NCBI RefSeq assembly: GCF_030913655.1
Contig: NZ_CP133189.1
Span: forward strand, 2,232,001 to 2,296,000
DNA from: Clostridium sp. MB40-C1
GTDB lineage: Bacteria; Bacillota; Clostridia; Clostridiales; Clostridiaceae
Length of the DNA: 64,000 nt
Direction of reading: 5' to 3'
Positions 21,104 through 52,870 of this stretch are shown here, one piece after another (positions within the stretch are counted from its first letter, which is position 1; the number at the start of each line of letters is the position of its first letter). Below the pieces are notes generated by a model. That model ran no database searches. It was given only the letters and a program-made list of their open reading frames with translations, and had not been told where the DNA came from. Made by a program: the position numbers and the translations under genes.

Positions 21104-21128
21104 GGCTATTGGATATTATCCAGTAGCC
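21104..21128 (+). terminator. orphan plus-strand hairpin
   Basis: GGCTATTGGA (21104-21113) pairs with TCCAGTAGCC (21119-21128), followed by TTTTCTT. No intact plus-strand gene precedes it; start-less short frames at about 20830-21010 may be what is left of one. Confidence 0.5.
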
Positions 21129-21139
21129 TTTTCTTATAT

Positions 21140-21370
21140 TGACATACTCCCATGCTCTATAGGACGGTAGGCCTGGTTTTATTTTATTTCGCAATCTTAC
21201 CCAGTATGCATCTGCCTCAAATGTGGCTTCTGTACGTCAGTCCAGAGTTTTGCCACCGGCTTCCTTCAGATTCCATCTCATGATGTACCCCTTGCCTTAA
21301 GCTATGCCTTGGGATTATCAACCCATGCTAGGGACCTTCACCCATTAGATTATGCCCATGTTAGGCACAC
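21140..21370 (-). mobile_element. 5' fragment of a group II intron
   Basis: On the minus strand the segment opens with GTGTGCC at 21370 and contains TGGGTGAAGGTCCC (21331-21344), GAAGCCGGTGGCAAAACTC and the GGACTGACGTACAGAAG block. These are the signature strings of domain I of bacterial group II introns. Only about 230 nt remain: no reverse transcriptase frame and no domain V follow. The intron begins 7 nt (AATTTTT) after the terminator hairpin of the PTS IIA gene, which is the insertion habit of class C introns. GC content is well above its surroundings. Confidence 0.7.
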
Positions 21371-29773: not shown

Positions 29774-29898
29774 TTACAAAAACGTAAGTTACAAAACTAT
29801 AAATGTAATTCAAATCAATGGTTGTTAAGCCTCTTAGGATATATAATTAAAATATAGATTGAGTTGCAAAATTAAAACAAATTATAGGGGGTACACAA
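29774..29898 (+). promoter_or_regulatory. conserved leader of 56-aa gene, copy 1
   Basis: Begins with a boxed element bounded by TTACA (29774) and TGTAA (to 29808) that contains AAAACGTAAGTTAC, followed by ATCAATGGTTG, a TATAAT-like -10 and AGGGGGTA before the ATG. The same order and mostly the same bases occur at 50796-50921 and 52574-52699. This copy is the most diverged. Confidence 0.65.
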
Positions 29899-30069
29899 AT
29901 GAAAATGTTAAAAAACTTATTAGATAAATTAATTAAAGCTATAGATGAAAATGAATTAGGAGCTACCGATTACTTAGAAGAAGTTGAATTCAAACTTAAT
30001 AATGATGAAGAATACAACTTAAAAGCTTGTGAAACTTTAATAAACATGAATAACATGTTTAGTGTTTAA
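29899..30069 (+). CDS. 56-aa small protein, family copy 1
   Basis: A short gene with AGGGGG 7-8 nt before ATG. The protein starts MKMLKNLLDKLIKAIDENEL, continues GATDYLEEVEFKLNNDEE and ends with YNLKACETLINMNNMFSV. It is predicted helical and acidic, with one cysteine, no signal peptide, no membrane span and no double-glycine leader. Two other copies (50922-51092, 52700-52870) have the same length and about 85-90% identical residues, and all three keep the same leader. Selection at the protein level is suggested by substitutions that keep length and frame. Function unknown. Confidence 0.75.
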   Translation: MKMLKNLLDKLIKAIDENELGATDYLEEVEFKLNNDEEYNLKACETLINMNNMFSV

Positions 30070-46425: not shown

Positions 46426-47265
46426 TTACTTTGAATATTCCTTAATTAATGTTTTTGTTACTTCAAGAACATAATTTTGACAATACTCTCCTGAGTTTCT
46501 ATCGTACTCTTCATTATTCACTTCACTGTTAGATAATATCCTAATTCCTAGGAAAGGAATATTATATGCCTTTGCAACTTGCGCTGCTGAAGCTGTTTCC
46601 ATCTCTTCTACTGATGTTCCATACTTTTTATTAATCCATTTAATTCTATCTAACTCACGGTTCCACTCATCAGCAGATCCAATAACTCCTTCTACCACTT
46701 TACCTTTTTTATATAGATTTGCTACACTTTTAGCAGATTTAATAAGCTGAGCATCACCTTCAAAATCTTTAAATTCCTTTGTTTCGCCGTTTACATTAAC
46801 TTCTATATTCATTGGAATCCAATTTTCAGGGTGAATTCCTTTATTATAGTCACCATGCTCAGATCTAAGAGCTCCGAAATTAACAGATTTTTTTCCTATA
46901 ACAATATCGCAACGATGTAATTGAGGATCATGTCCTCCAGCAGTTCCTTGATTTATTATTGCTCTAGGATTAAATTTTTCAATAGCTAACAGTGTTGATG
47001 CTGCAGCATTTGTCATACCTATTTCTGTTTTAGCAACAACTACAGGAAATTTATCTATTGTTCCTTTCCAAAAAGTCCAGCCACCATATGTAACTTTCTC
47101 AGCATTTTGCAGCTGTTTTACTAAACTTTGTGTTTCTACATCCATTGCCCCTTGAATTACAATTGGCCTAACTGCCTCTTTAGTTTTAGAATTACTGCAT
47201 CCTATAAATGCAAATGTCATTATAATTCCTAAAATTACTGCTAAAAACCTTTTTCTCATGTTCAT
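46426..47265 (-). CDS. nucleosidase-like lipoprotein (MTA/SAH nucleosidase fold)
   Basis: A 279-aa exported lipoprotein: signal peptide with lipobox FIGC (Cys23), then a purine nucleoside phosphorylase-like domain. Visible: VIQGAMDVETQSLVKQLQNA, KTEIGMTNAAASTLLAIEKF (phosphate/ribose loop of nucleosidases), NQGTAGG, VEEMETASAAQVAKAYNIPF with the catalytic METAS motif. The METAS and TAGG motifs are those of MTA/SAH nucleosidases. Being tethered outside, it would split extracellular purine nucleosides or related compounds to release the base. A purine riboswitch with terminator precedes it (47470-47605), which supports a purine role. Confidence 0.85.
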   Translation of the reverse strand: MNMRKRFLAVILGIIMTFAFIGCSNSKTKEAVRPIVIQGAMDVETQSLVKQLQNAEKVTYGGWTFWKGTIDKFPVVVAKTEIGMTNAAASTLLAIEKFNPRAIINQGTAGGHDPQLHRCDIVIGKKSVNFGALRSEHGDYNKGIHPENWIPMNIEVNVNGETKEFKDFEGDAQLIKSAKSVANLYKKGKVVEGVIGSADEWNRELDRIKWINKKYGTSVEEMETASAAQVAKAYNIPFLGIRILSNSEVNNEEYDRNSGEYCQNYVLEVTKTLIKEYSK

Positions 47266-47469: not shown

Positions 47470-47605
47470 AAAAAACACCTTGTCCAAATTAATGGCATAA
47501 GGTGTTAAATACATCATACATGCATGACAATAAAACACTTATAGCCAAACTATTTACGGTAGTTGGTAGAAACTTTTAGCCCATATTGCTAAATTTATAT
47601 AAGCG
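47470..47605 (-). ncRNA. purine riboswitch with intrinsic terminator
   Basis: Minus strand, 5' to 3': P1 CGCTTATA (ends 47605) pairs with TATAAGTG (47536-47543). P2 is TTTAGC/GCTAAA around the loop AATATGG, followed by the invariant J2/3 AGTTTCTACC. P3 is AACTA/TAGTT around the loop CCGTAAA. The base in J3/1 that sets specificity is C, the guanine-type choice, but J3/1 reads GGCTAT where GACTAT is usual. A terminator follows (AACACCTT.. at 47499-47506 with 47475-47482, then a run of T's). It lies about 200 nt before the nucleosidase lipoprotein gene. Confidence 0.88.
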
Positions 47606-47895
47606 AACATTTTTTTATATTTTTTATTAAATGTTTGTATTATACATTATACACTAGGTATTTATATATTTCAACACATAATTTTATATATTTTAACATG
47701 TATTGCAAATAAAAAACCGTACAATAACTATGATTCTTATGTATTTCTATATAATATTAAAGTGTAGTATATTATTTTATCTCATTAATTAATAATTTAA
47801 ACTTATAAAAACCTAATCTTTCTTTTTATAACATATTTCTACATCAAATTGATATTTTCTTCCTAATATGTTAATCTATCATGGAGGTGTTTAAG

Positions 47896-48715: not shown

Positions 48716-49099
48716 ATGAAACTTATTATTTCCAACGTTTCAGGGGTACCAATATATAAACAAATTAAAGAACAAATTAAAAGTGCCATATTATCTGGTG
48801 AACTGGAAGAAAACGAAGCACTCCCTTCTTTAAGAAAATTATCAAAACATTTAAAAATTAGTGTACTAACTACAACAAGGGCATACACAGAGCTTGAACA
48901 AGAAGGTTTTGTAAAAAACATTCAAGGCAAGGGTTGTTATGTAATGGAGCGTGGCTCTAAACTCATTCGAGAACATCTTATACGAGAAGTTGAAAAAAAC
49001 TTGACTAATGCAATATTAGCAGCTAAAAGAGCAGATTTAAAAATAACAGATCTACACTCAATGCTTGATATCTTAGAGGAGGCTGAAGATGATGAATGA
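48716..49099 (+). CDS. GntR-family regulator, YtrA type
   Basis: A 127-aa short GntR protein: winged helix (VPIYKQIKEQIKSAILSGEL, LPSLRKLSKHLKISVLTTTR, GFVKNIQGKGCYV) and a brief C-terminal dimer tail, the YtrA subfamily layout. Such regulators sit at the head of ABC operons and respond to cell-wall antibiotics. AGGAG before ATG; the stop overlaps the ABC gene start. Confidence 0.92.
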   Translation: MKLIISNVSGVPIYKQIKEQIKSAILSGELEENEALPSLRKLSKHLKISVLTTTRAYTELEQEGFVKNIQGKGCYVMERGSKLIREHLIREVEKNLTNAILAAKRADLKITDLHSMLDILEEAEDDE

Positions 49100-49943
49100 T
49101 GCTTTAATAGTTAATAATCTTAGCAAAAATTATAGTAACTTTAAACTGAAAGATGTTAGCTTTCAGTTACCACAAGGCTATATCATGGGTTTAATTGGTA
49201 AAAATGGTTCTGGAAAAACAACCACTATTAGATGTATTTTAAATATGATTAAAAGAAATTCTGGAGAGATTTGCATATTTGGTAAGGATAATATTCAAGA
49301 TGAATTAGAAATCAAAAAAAATATTGGTGCTGTTTTCGATTCCAATTTCTTTGTGGATAATTGGAATATTACAGATGTTGAAAAAACAGTTAGTATGTTT
49401 TATTCTCATTGGAATAAAGTATATTTTCATACTTTATTAAAAAAATTCCATTTAAACAAAAACAAAAAGGTAAAAGAACTTTCCAAAGGTATGCAAATGA
49501 AACTTATGCTTGCTTGTGCCTTATCTTATGATGCAAACCTTCTTATTTTAGATGAACCTACAAGTGGCCTTGATCCAGTTTCACGTGATGAATTGTTAGA
49601 AATATTAGCAGATTACATTGAAGATGGGGTGCACAGTATCTTATTCTCAACACATATTACAGAAGATTTAGATAAAATTGCTGACTATATTACTTATCTG
49701 AATAATGGAGAAGTATTCTATACTGGGGGAAAAGAAGAATTTATCGACCTATTTAGAATTGTAAAAGGTGGCCCAGAAGAACTTTCCTTAGATTTAAAAA
49801 ATAAATTGGAAGGAATAAGAACGTTTCCCACAGGTTTTGAAGGACTTATTAAAACTCAATATGTAAAAGACTATCCAAGCTTATTATATGAACCTGCAAC
49901 AATAGATGATATTATTATTTTTACTAATAAAGGAGAGGTTTAA
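49089..49943 (+). CDS. ABC transporter ATP-binding protein
   Basis: A 284-aa ATPase: Walker A GLIGKNGSGKTT (about 35-46), signature LSKGMQMKLMLA, Walker B LLILDEPTSGLDPVS and the H-loop STHITED. The C-terminal 70 residues form the extra domain common in antibiotic-resistance ABC proteins of this type. Overlaps the GntR gene by 11 bp and is followed by its permease. Probably bacitracin/peptide-type export or sensing, inferred from the operon layout. Confidence 0.93.
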   Translation: MMNDALIVNNLSKNYSNFKLKDVSFQLPQGYIMGLIGKNGSGKTTTIRCILNMIKRNSGEICIFGKDNIQDELEIKKNIGAVFDSNFFVDNWNITDVEKTVSMFYSHWNKVYFHTLLKKFHLNKNKKVKELSKGMQMKLMLACALSYDANLLILDEPTSGLDPVSRDELLEILADYIEDGVHSILFSTHITEDLDKIADYITYLNNGEVFYTGGKEEFIDLFRIVKGGPEELSLDLKNKLEGIRTFPTGFEGLIKTQYVKDYPSLLYEPATIDDIIIFTNKGEV

Positions 49944-49944
49944 T

Positions 49945-50604
49945 ATGAATAATGTACTTAAGTCCATAAAACTTGATTTTATGCTAATTAAAGAGTATTT
50001 TAAAATATTTATTTACATTCTCATTATTTCTGTTTTTTTATCAGCTTCTTCAAAATTTTTAATAGGTGGACTTGTAACTTCCGTGTCTATATTAGCAATG
50101 AGGTTTACATCCTTAACATTTGAGTCTGAAGAAAAAAATAATATTACAAATTTATATGGTATACTCCCAATTAGTAAAAAACACCATGTAGTTGGACGCT
50201 TTATTTTTACCATTATAATTGGAATAGCTACTTTGATGATTTCACTAATTATACAGTCCATCATTCTTATAACTATGGGGGTTACTATTACAGGTACTAC
50301 ATGCATACTTGGATTAATTCTCAGTATGGTTGTTTACCTCTTTACTATCGCCTTACAACTACCAGGATTTTATAAATATGGAGCTATCAAAGGTAGAATG
50401 TTTACACTAATTCCACTTGCCGGCTTTTTTATTGTATATTATCTATTGGGTAAGCTAGAAAATTGGGGTATTTCAACAACAATCACATTTACTAATGCTA
50501 TAAAAGATCCAACACTTACTGCCTTAATTGCTCTAATTATTACAATAATGATTTCTATTATTTCCATGATTATTTCTGTAAAAATATACGAAGATAAAGA
50601 ATGA
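49945..50604 (+). CDS. ABC-2 type permease
   Basis: A 219-aa membrane protein with six predicted spans (for example FKIFIYILIISVFLSASS, FIFTIIIGIATLMISLII, LIALIITIMISIISMIISV). Partner of the ATPase, one nucleotide after its stop. ATG 49945 is chosen, with AGGAGAGG 6 nt upstream, rather than the open frame that starts inside the ATPase gene. Ends at a terminator (50659-50697). Confidence 0.9.
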   Translation: MNNVLKSIKLDFMLIKEYFKIFIYILIISVFLSASSKFLIGGLVTSVSILAMRFTSLTFESEEKNNITNLYGILPISKKHHVVGRFIFTIIIGIATLMISLIIQSIILITMGVTITGTTCILGLILSMVVYLFTIALQLPGFYKYGAIKGRMFTLIPLAGFFIVYYLLGKLENWGISTTITFTNAIKDPTLTALIALIITIMISIISMIISVKIYEDKE

Positions 50605-50779: not shown

Positions 50780-50795
50780 TATTCTAATATCTACA

Positions 50796-50921
50796 TTACA
50801 AAAACGTAAGTTACGAAACCCTAAATGTAATTTAAATCAATGGTTGCTAAAACACTTAGGTTGTATAATTAAAACATAAAGTGAGTTACGGATTAAAAAC
50901 AAATTACAGGAGGTAACACAA
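50796..50921 (+). promoter_or_regulatory. conserved leader of 56-aa gene, copy 2
   Basis: TTACAAAAACGTAAGTTACG opens a TTACA...TGTAA box (50796-50830) holding the dyad CGTAAGTTACG. ATCAATGGTTGCTAAAACAC and a consensus TATAAT follow, then AGGAGGTAA before the ATG. It is nearly identical to the leader at 52574-52699. Confidence 0.75.
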
Positions 50922-51092
50922 ATGAAAATGTTAAAAAATTTATTAGATAAACTAGCTAAGGTTATAGATGAAAATGAATTAGGAACTGACAATTATTTAG
51001 AAGAAGTTGAATTCAAACTTAACAATGATAAAGAATATAACTTAAAAGCTTGTGAAACTTTAATGAACATGAATAATATGTTTAGTGCTTAA
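50922..51092 (+). CDS. 56-aa small protein, family copy 2
   Basis: Reads MKMLKNLLDKLAKVIDENEL, GTDNYLEEVEFKLNNDKE, then YNLKACETLMNMNNMFSA. It differs from copy 3 (52700-52870) in only two residues (Thr/Ser at 22, Ser/Asn near the end) and from copy 1 in about eight. It is helical, acidic and probably cytoplasmic, with no recognised motif. AGGAGG is 9 nt before ATG. It lies between the ABC operon and the truncated MarR gene on the other strand. Confidence 0.8.
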   Translation: MKMLKNLLDKLAKVIDENELGTDNYLEEVEFKLNNDKEYNLKACETLMNMNNMFSA

Positions 51093-51170
51093 TACTTTGA
51101 ATATTTTTAAATACACAAATCAGTACTATACAATTATAGATTTTTTATACCTCTTTTAAATATAAATTTA

Positions 51171-51650
51171 TTAATCTGATATTTTATCCCTTCTTTTATT
51201 CGAAAACTTTTCTAATGCAATTCTTAATTCTTCCTCCATATCAATATTAGGTATCTGAACATTCTCTTCGAAACTATTCATTTCTACGCCATCAAAACTA
51301 TATATTTTAACCAATAAATTCCATGGAGTTTCTATTTCTTCTTTAGTGAAATCTTTAAAAATGGTAGCCATAAAATTAATAGAAGCATCTTTTCCACATT
51401 TAACCATAACATTCATCCCCATATCAGTCACACATACATTAACAGCTCTCTTATCTTTTTTACTAGGTATAATAGATACAAAGTCTTTTTTTTCAAGACT
51501 TTTAACTAATTGGGTTGTATTTTGTTTAGTTGTATCTAACTTCTTAGCACTATTAATAAATGTAGTCTCATCTTTAGGTAAGTTAAGAACTGCCAACATA
51601 GTCAATATATTGTCTATGTTTATATTATAAATTAGCTTTAAATTTACCAC
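51171..51650 (-). pseudogene. MarR-family regulator, N-terminally truncated
   Basis: The frame (159 codons from a GTG with no ribosome site) encodes the MarR winged helix (INSAKKLDTTKQNTTQLVKS, LEKKDFVSIIPSKKDKRAVN, VCVTDMGMNVM) and a C-terminal helix. The usual N-terminal dimerisation helix of about 30-40 residues is missing; the open frame starts only 12 codons before helix 2. The upstream DNA is a MATE gene remnant. Probably non-functional or a domain fragment. Confidence 0.6.
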
Positions 51651-51683
51651 AAAGACAGTTGCTATTTTTCAATAATGAATGAC

Positions 51684-52282
51684 CTATAGATATTGATAAC
51701 ATTTCCTGTATCGAAATATTAAAGCTATTGATATAAATAATGTCAGAAATTCAGCTAAAGGAACAGCCAACCAAATACCCGTTACATTTAGAAAAACAGG
51801 CAAAATGAGTAATCCTACTGTAATAAAACCCAATGTCCGTAAAAATGATACTATCGCTGATATTTTTCCATTCGATAAAGCGGTAAACATAGCAGAAGCA
51901 AAAATATTAAATCCGCAAAACAGGAAACTGAATGAAAATATAGAAAATCCGTATTTTGTAAATTCATAAACGCTTGTTTCCTGATCGATAAAAATATTAG
52001 CAATATAAGACCCGCCAAGCATGGAACACATAAATATTAATACCGAACATGTAAAAATACATCCTATACAAATACGAAATACTCTTTTTAACTGAATATT
52101 ATTACGACTTCCATAATTGTAACTTATAACTGGCGCAACCCCCGTTGAAAATCCAATATACATTGTTGTCATCAAAAATTGTGAATAAATGATGATCGTA
52201 ATAGCTGCCACGCCATCCTCCCCTAGGAGCTTCATCATCATAATATTAAATAAAAAGGTTGTAACTGCTGTTGATAATTGTC
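51684..52282 (-). pseudogene. MATE efflux transporter, C-terminal fragment
   Basis: The frame encodes about 200 residues of the C-terminal half of a MATE drug/sodium antiporter (FLMTTMYIGFSTGVAPVISY, NYGSRNNIQLKRVFRI, then four to five spans to a normal C-terminus). The frame is already open upstream of the first ATG (LGQLSTAVTTFLFNI), running back to about 52282 where it meets a stop in the AraC fragment. So the N-terminal half was lost by deletion, not by point mutation. Confidence 0.8.
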
Positions 52283-52360
52283 CTAATCTATTTTTTCAGT
52301 TAAATGTGCTTCAATATATTCAATAGCTAACATAATGTTTTTAATTCTGTTATTTGACAT
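52283..52360 (-). pseudogene. AraC-family regulator, N-terminal fragment
   Basis: An ATG with an excellent GGAGGGAGGG site opens a frame reading MSNNRIKNIMLAIEYIEAHL then TEKID and a stop. This is the first helix of an AraC-type DNA-binding domain (RIxxxxxYIExHLTEKIDL). Directly after it the sequence becomes the MATE gene. One deletion appears to have removed the rest of the regulator and the first half of the transporter. Confidence 0.7.
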
Positions 52361-52573
52361 ATGTTTTCCCTCCCTCCGATAGCAATTATATCAAAACTGA
52401 AAAACCTACTTTTAATTATTCTTGCTATTATTAAACTAAATCCTGATTTTTCTTAATTTTTTTATTTCTTTAGCTAACTCAACCCTATTAATAGCACTTT
52501 TATCTTTCACCCACCTTTAAGTATTTACATTTGTACATATAAATACTACCTATATAACGTTCTAATACCTACA

Positions 52574-52699
52574 TTACAAAAACGTAAGTTACGAAACCCT
52601 AAATGTAATTTAAATCAATGGTTACTAAAACACTTAGGTTGTATAATTAAATCATAAAGTGAGTTACGAATTAAAAATAAATTACAGGGGGTAATACAA
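52574..52699 (+). promoter_or_regulatory. conserved leader of 56-aa gene, copy 3
   Basis: Same elements as copy 2: the TTACA...TGTAA box at 52574-52608 with CGTAAGTTACG, ATCAATGG, TATAAT, and AGGGGGTAA before ATG. The match with copy 2 continues upstream to about TTCTAATA(C/T)CTACATTAC. Confidence 0.75.
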
Positions 52700-52870
52700 A
52701 TGAAAATGTTAAAAAATTTATTAGATAAACTAGCTAAGGTTATAGATGAAAATGAATTAGGATCTGACAATTATTTAGAAGAAGTTGAATTCAAACTTAA
52801 CAATGATAAAGAATATAACTTAAAAGCTTGTGAAACTTTAATGAACATGAATAATATGTTTAATGCTTAA
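52700..52870 (+). CDS. 56-aa small protein, family copy 3
   Basis: Reads MKMLKNLLDKLAKVIDENEL, GSDNYLEEVEFKLNNDKE, YNLKACETLMNMNNMFNA. Nearly identical to copy 2, including the DNA around it, which indicates a recent duplication of about 1.78 kb spacing. Between the two copies lie the AraC, MATE and MarR remnants. No function can be assigned. Confidence 0.8.
   Translation: MKMLKNLLDKLAKVIDENELGSDNYLEEVEFKLNNDKEYNLKACETLMNMNNMFNA

Follow-up and report, generated by a model that had tools for sequence, protein, structure and literature searches.

Introduction

Bce-type systems are a main route of Gram-positive resistance to peptide antibiotics, and their familiar outputs are mostly transporters and envelope enzymes. 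Small proteins are also known as inhibitors of histidine kinases, as MgrB inhibits PhoQ and Sda inhibits KinA, and VraH, of the VraDEH system of Staphylococcus aureus, has a length of 55 residues. At the BceR and PsdR promoters of Bacillus subtilis, work of Fang et al. from 2017 is said to have found that a secondary site is needed. One report describes VraH as a small transmembrane protein which has a YYKRREEKGK motif and interacts with VraD (PMC5786555). A consensus for the regulators of bceAB-type genes, TNACA-N4-TGTAA with an AT-rich spacer, is given in another (PMC9020739), and a third gives AnnTTACnAnnnnGTnAG as the operator consensus of L. paracasei, together with the statement that Bce-type regulons can include further genes, dlt and mprF for example (PMC10858260).

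We consider here the window, that is, the whole stretch of 64 kb that was analysed (G000:C1:2232001-2296000), which belongs to a clostridial genome of 3.89 Mb, G000. A reading made from the sequence alone had drawn attention to three copies of a gene for a 56-residue protein. The explanation that we find best, and rather probable on sequence grounds, is that these three genes are the multi-copy small-protein outputs of one clostridial Bce-type antimicrobial-peptide response, the steps of which are laid out below.

Three copies of one gene and one leader

The genes are found on the forward strand at 29899..30069 (copy 1), 50922..51092 (copy 2) and 52700..52870 (copy 3), each supported by reading frame, alignment and selection. 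That they are intact, 56 codons long and without indels, and that a leader of about 125 bp is common to all three, had been stated in the sequence-only reading and is borne out here. With copy 2 as a reference, the protein of copy 3 is 96% identical and that of copy 1 86%. Copies 2 and 3 arose by duplication of one block, about 300 nt long, that includes operator, promoter and gene: a repeat comparison delimits a common unit of 300 nt on the forward strand, 50782..51081, 97% identical to 52560-52859, and the flanks, taken over 200 bp on each side, are 54-59% identical, other flank comparisons of this AT-rich DNA being equally high. Between copies 1 and 2, identity is 92% in the box, 79% in the remaining leader, 90% in the gene and 47-60% in the flanks. 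Both loci are present in a named relative, Clostridium brassicae ZC22-4 (Clostridiaceae). The picture of conservation is less clean for the ortholog pair formed by copy 1 and its C. brassicae counterpart, with 97% in the box, 65% in the remaining leader, 92% in the gene and 96% in a downstream flank which contains another gene. Because dS is 0 for copies 2 and 3 and 0.32 for copies 1 and 2, copy 1 must be seen as the older branch, in agreement with the previous view that the two other copies stem from a recent duplication.

Purifying selection acts on the gene. The dN/dS ratio lies between 0.10 and 0.38 in 11 of the 12 gene pairs computed: 0.10 for ortholog pairs with C. brassicae (copies 2 and 3 with brA, copy 1 with brB), 0.14-0.31 for pairs among the genes of G001 and G004, 0.18-0.26 for older against younger copies, and 0.24-0.38 for two distant pairs. 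It is undefined for copies 2 and 3, because the two changes between them are both replacements, with none that is silent. None of the defined values is near 1, and an internal stop was found in none of the 17 family genes described below, so that neither neutral drift nor degeneration by frameshift, which the first reading had suggested looking for, is seen.

As for the surroundings, the box of copy 2 is preceded, at a distance of about 190 bp, by a set of genes for an ABC transporter (regulator, ATPase and membrane protein; 48716-50604), and the interval between copies 2 and 3 (51174-52241) holds a MarR-type regulator gene and a short ORF of 185 aa for a MatE permease, perhaps truncated. On the reverse strand, a purine riboswitch aptamer (Rfam RF00167, 80.1 bits; 47522-47622) stands upstream of a lipoprotein-like ORF (46426-47265) which resembles, by eye, a nucleoside phosphorylase, and a group II intron D1-D4-3 match (RF02001, 66.5 bits; 21119-21287) is located in a stretch without any ORF of at least 110 aa.

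Anatomy of the leader

The leader is made of TTACA-N4-YGTAA, a second TGTAA site, a weak -35 hexamer, TGGTTR, a spacer of 17 bp and TATAAT. It starts with TTACA-AAAA-CGTAA in the window copies and with TTACA-N4-TGTAA in G004 and G001. The second TGTAA lies 21 bp beyond the right half of the main site and immediately precedes the -35, an arrangement also seen in several bceA promoters. The ATCAATGG element noticed in the sequence-only reading comes after this second TGTAA and runs into the hexamer, TGGTTG or TGGTTA, which a spacer of 17 bp separates from a perfect TATAAT. In copy 1, all features being on the forward strand, the main BceR-type site, TTACA-N4-CGTAA, covers 29774..29787, the second site block, AAATGTAATTCAAATCAATGG, 29801..29821, the -35-like TGGTTG, 17 bp before the -10, 29819..29824, and the -10 TATAAT, 68 bp from the start of the box, 29842..29847. 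The corresponding positions are, for copy 2, 50796..50809, 50823..50843, 50841..50846 (TGGTTG) and 50864..50869 (TATAAT) and, for copy 3, 52574..52587, 52601..52621, 52619..52624 (TGGTTA) and 52642..52647 (TATAAT). Main sites were assigned by sequence, pattern and matrix, second blocks by leader anatomy and matrix, and promoter hexamers by leader anatomy.

This geometry extends to the whole set of 12 family genes that carry the box: TATAAT begins exactly at +68 from the start of the box in every one of them, and a hexamer of the TGG type (TGTTTA in one gene) is always present 17 bp upstream. Among seven promoters of Bce modules, the best -10 is at +67 or +68 in five, two of which have the only perfect TATAAT of the seven, and a simple scan gave no -10 at these positions for the other two, the upstream box of G000 and the bceA gene of G169. 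The two-site layout of the leaders is also found before bceA or before a wall-enzyme gene in those Bce modules that we place in a group C. When compared with the published consensus, the strict form TNACA-N4-TGTAA is exact in seven of the 12 boxed genes (in G004, G001 and G008, two in G168 and two in G169), and the three boxes of the window and the two of C. brassicae, which read CGTAA, are one base off. The core of the L. paracasei consensus, TTACnAnnnnGTnAG (PMC10858260), is matched by every window copy, each reading TTACAAAAACGTAAG; the A with which the consensus opens, three bases ahead of TTAC, is shared by copies 2 and 3 but not by copy 1.

The leader thus reads as a two-site operator followed by a promoter, of the type used by BceR-like response regulators, and it can be read as tying the genes to antimicrobial-peptide or cell-envelope stress. 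The first reading had left open whether the leaders had a common regulator: their common layout stands, and what we add is its reading as a BceR-type operator and promoter. The spacing of 21 bp had suggested control of the LytTR/AgrA type; this appears less apt, as G004 has the gene with only one LytTR match and as the published Bce consensus also accounts for the upstream half of the leader. No RNA element was recognized at the leaders by an Rfam match at gathering score, and plain sigma-70 and terminator scans were uninformative, with 22 promoter-like sites against 20.4 expected.

How rare is the operator?

Taken alone, the short box of 14 bases is weak evidence, as it is not rare: the window has three occurrences of TNACA-N4-YGTAA where 1.49 are expected, and at least as many arise in 19 of 100 shuffles. 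The two-site matrix is decisive within its limits. It was trained on five promoters of Bce loci, none of them from the leaders, with training sites aligned by eye; these promoters were chosen among Bce boxes because their second site is placed as in the leaders, and therefore the matrix tests this sub-type and not Bce boxes generally, boxes with different layouts (L096, L097, L103, L120 and L130, for example) having been left out. With this matrix the three leaders rank first in the window, at 35.8, 35.8 and 35.1 bits, the next independent site being at 13.2, and the highest score in 100 Markov-1 simulations of 64 kb was 20.8, with at most 13.0 in 34 control loci (106,927 bp). The 12 boxed family genes score 22.3-35.8, the lowest value, that of the operator of the first G169 gene, being barely over the simulation maximum. 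In the whole of G000, a strict two-site pattern is found four times, at the three leaders and at one further place, and the reversed pattern never. An earlier matrix of eight promoters was partly circular, since three of its eight sites had been found with the leader pattern; it provides the scores of the group-C loci given below, the sites of G000, G001, G003 and G004 being largely its training sites and the independent ones those of G007, G008, G103, G168, G169 and of other G000 modules.

Other genes stand behind such operators. The fourth match in G000 has a Glucosaminidase-domain gene about 440 bp downstream. The leader pattern led to sites followed by a PAP2 phosphatase in G001 and by a Transgly-domain protein in G004, bceA also belongs to this set, and the group-C locus of G001 has an operator before an SLT-domain gene. 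In G000 and G003 the operator precedes an ORF of 148 aa which is 39% identical to the latter protein over only 61 residues (no Pfam match was obtained for the G000 ORF), and in G004 it precedes an ORF of 100 aa without a match to it. ORFs 31-34% identical to the G001 SLT-domain protein recur beside Bce modules or behind Bce-type operators (L178:11822-12426, L130:8507-9013, L201:3052-3558 and L202:7477-7914), that of L201 having no operator by the scan used.

A family across clostridial genera

A search with a single sequence found the gene in four of eight genomes of the genus, and profile searches covering 225 genomes of the order raised the family to 17 genes in eight genomes and four genera: four genes in G000, three each in G003 and G169, two each in G001 and G168, and one each in G004, G008 and G103. 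G008, G103 and the pair G168/G169 stand for three genera other than that of the window. This count leaves out 11 matches (E 0.0018-0.019, one each in 11 genomes), most of them inside longer frames or with stops, and the third G169 gene (E 0.015) was kept in it because it directly follows a family gene. Five of 13 weak matches were inspected (L145, L146, L147, L150 and L153), and two of the five (E 9.5e-4 and 0.0074) are short genes with a box directly upstream.

The operator is carried by 12 of the 17 genes, in three genera and seven genomes (G000 has three boxed copies; G003, G168 and G169 have two), and the earlier claim that regulation and product are kept together holds, in this sense, for most copies. 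It is absent directly upstream of five genes: one G001 copy, the G103 gene, a fourth G000 paralogue, its G003 counterpart and the second gene of the G169 tandem. Considering G008, G168 and G169 together, it is directly upstream of five genes in six, the sixth being the second of a tandem pair behind a single operator. The five boxed proteins of these genomes are 47-50 aa long; compared with the first G169 member, the other four are 49-70% identical and members of genus g1 23-38%. Distant members of the family are confirmed by the operator, and not by sequence alone. A D-x-x-Y motif is common to all 12 boxed members and to the unboxed G001 copy, and it is absent in G103 and in the fourth-paralogue type. 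This fourth G000 paralogue (G000:C1:2112399-2112551; L176, L181), diverged and without the leader, is placed downstream of an OmpR-type two-component system. In G001 (L052:1501-1640, L088:143-496), an intact operator with its -10 is followed by other sequence and no family gene; a Y2_Tnp transposase fragment lies near this operator, and the adjoining family gene has none.

The protein associates a short cationic amphipathic N-terminal segment with an acidic C-terminal part containing a D-x-x-Y-x3-A motif. All eight members computed are acidic (pI 4.05-4.89). The moment of their N-terminus is 0.44-0.71, with 0.03 or better against shuffles in six, and amphipathicity was not significant in one G169 (0.12) and one G168 (0.10) member tested. 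None of the eight has a hydrophobic 19-mer (maximum mean hydrophobicity 0.27) and the single transmembrane helix of a VraH-like accessory protein is found in none of them; tryptophan is absent from all 16 aligned members. The best Pfam match has 15.5 bits for a cut-off of 27, the best NCBIfam match 15.7 for a cut-off of 164, PHROGs gave weak matches only for 16 members scanned (best E 0.0041) and PADLOC none for five of five. The proposal of an undescribed family is in line with these results, as none of the four libraries names the protein, and neither a known family nor a mobile element, which had been suggested as explanations to look for, came out of the libraries searched. Among the matches listed in the open-licence literature on Bce regulons and small proteins, there was no such clostridial family. 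Profile matches in the PDB, to designed proteins over 20 residues (E 0.00076 and 0.028) and to a restriction enzyme (E 0.33), were judged to be due to chance.

A candidate regulator

Six loci of G000 contain genes similar to bceR, bceS, bceA and bceB. One of them, the group-C module at G000:C1:2933557 (L127), codes in order for proteins of 224, 343, 254 and 659 aa, an OmpR-type regulator, a short kinase, an ABC ATPase and an FtsX permease, with HATPase_c/HisKA and FtsX Pfam matches. An ORF that looks by eye like a transposase (L127:9984-10931, reverse strand) lies between bceS and the bceA operator. The regulator was searched in 12 of the 225 genomes, which are few and related. An orthologous group-C regulator is present in all seven genomes with boxed genes, its identity to that of G000 being 98% in G003, 87% in G004, 83% in G001, 79% in G169, 78% in G168 and 76% in G008. 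Every one of these group-C loci has the operator, which scores 34.9-35.7 at bceA in G008, G168 and G169 with the eight-site matrix, outside its training; the stretch compared was without bceA in G003 and without the permease in G169. In the genomes of the genus without the gene, the best match to the regulator is 63% identical in G007 and 44% in G002 and G006, with none at E<=1e-38 in G005, and it is 57% in G103, whose family member is unboxed. The 63% regulator of G007 is accompanied by an operator, the family gene being absent; in a tree of 30 regulators the four group-C proteins of the genus join it with support 92/83, a fork that is unsure. The family gene of G004 is divergent from a complete bceRSAB, and G006 has a copy of this adjoining module, with a regulator 92% identical, and no family member.

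When the loci of G008, G168 and G169 (L201-L203) are compared with L127, the regulator is 76-79% identical, the kinase 51-56% and the permease 43-48% (two loci). The regulator is thus far better conserved than its partners, as expected if it serves several promoters. The operator-promoter module is conserved and, in the genomes tested, co-inherited with one Bce regulator, and its protein is under selection. Taken together, sequence and co-occurrence support a control of the boxed genes which the group-C regulator would exert.

A proposed function and its rivals

We may therefore propose the following scenario. A BceRS-type two-component system would sense cell-wall-active antimicrobial peptides through a BceAB-like transporter. 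On induction, the phosphorylated regulator would bind the main site, TTACA-N4-YGTAA, together with the second TGTAA site and, once bound, would activate a promoter whose -35 is poor and whose -10 is perfect. As anatomy and co-occurrence suggest, several gene copies would then yield much of an intracellular protein of about 47-57 residues, alongside bceAB and cell-wall enzymes. Through its N-terminal segment this protein would attach to the inner membrane face and there assist the response, either by protecting the membrane or by binding some part of the Bce module; such a location and such a role seem to us the most likely. We infer in the same way that the group-C regulator activates these genes under attack by wall-active peptides. 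In a wider picture, which we put forward more tentatively, these small, acidic, membrane-touching intracellular proteins, multi-copy and present in at least three clostridial genera, would join transporter and wall enzymes as the third arm of one Bce-type response and would exert their action from the inner membrane face.

The main rival would have the small protein be a feedback modulator, itself under the regulator's control, which would bind either the transporter or the intramembrane-sensing kinase and so adjust signalling or bring it to an end, in the manner of MgrB with PhoQ or Sda with KinA. The co-occurrence of one orthologous module in seven of seven genomes with boxed genes, the position of the gene beside bceRSAB in G004, the small size and acidity of a protein without membrane span, and the way in which it changes across genera alongside a kinase that changes faster than the regulator (51-56% against 76-79% in G008, G168 and G169) would all suit it. 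However, a genome with several boxed copies, such as G000 (three) or G003, G168 and G169 (two each), suits a product made in bulk better than a regulator, and no convincing sequence match to a solved structure was obtained, making this modulator somewhat unlikely in our view.

It is also unlikely, in our judgement, that the link with group C reflects shared ancestry only, the box being the target of several Bce regulators at once or of a different member of the OmpR family. A search of G000 with the G004 regulator does give 15 matches at E<=1e-35, the genome has six four-gene Bce loci, and the matrix does not tell which regulator binds; moreover, cross-binding is reported in L. paracasei, where one Bce regulator binds the promoters of the other (PMC10858260). 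Yet group-C promoters share with the leaders both sites and, in five of the seven shown, their spacing, whereas the sites are closer together in the group-A promoters of G001 and G004 (L097, L103).

A secreted amphipathic or leaderless bacteriocin-like peptide, made in response to competitors, would be short and multi-copy, with an amphipathic N-terminus and no hydrophobic signal segment, and it might well be under the apparent control of a peptide-antibiotic sensor, with an ABC transporter ending close to the box of copy 2. We consider it very improbable all the same, the protein being acidic in eight cases out of eight, devoid of tryptophan in 16 aligned members out of 16, and the ABC transporter being absent from the 3 kb upstream of the C. 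brassicae ortholog. Finally, a mobile or repetitive cassette of operator and ORF without cellular function, to which the 300-nt unit duplicated as a block and the neighbours in G001 and G004, different from those of the window, might have pointed, is already disfavoured and hardly credible, in view of the purifying selection on the gene, of a repeat search that found no inverted repeat bounding the unit, and of the lack of a match in 72,556 plasmid records (two members) or 50,697 phage records (one member), PHROGs matches being at E>=0.004 only.

Returning to the small protein as an output of a Bce-type response, a dedicated intracellular product of this kind would, if true, be a new component of these responses. 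The fixed geometry of operator and promoter also offers a simple way to read clostridial Bce regulons and to find short genes that annotation may miss.

Comparison with known systems

The clostridial modules are akin to BceRSAB-type modules such as BceRSAB of B. subtilis and PsdRSAB or ApsRSAB of L. paracasei in their regulator, kinase, transporter and type of operator. They differ from them in that their target here, besides wall enzymes, is a multi-copy intracellular small protein, for which we found no described counterpart. VraH is likewise a very small protein belonging to a Bce-type system; unlike VraH, however, the clostridial protein has no hydrophobic span of 19 residues, and its gene is not part of a bceAB operon. 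Like MgrB and Sda, it would be a small protein that a two-component circuit either produces or works with: no sequence relation to the clostridial protein was shown, and a shared function is conjecture only.
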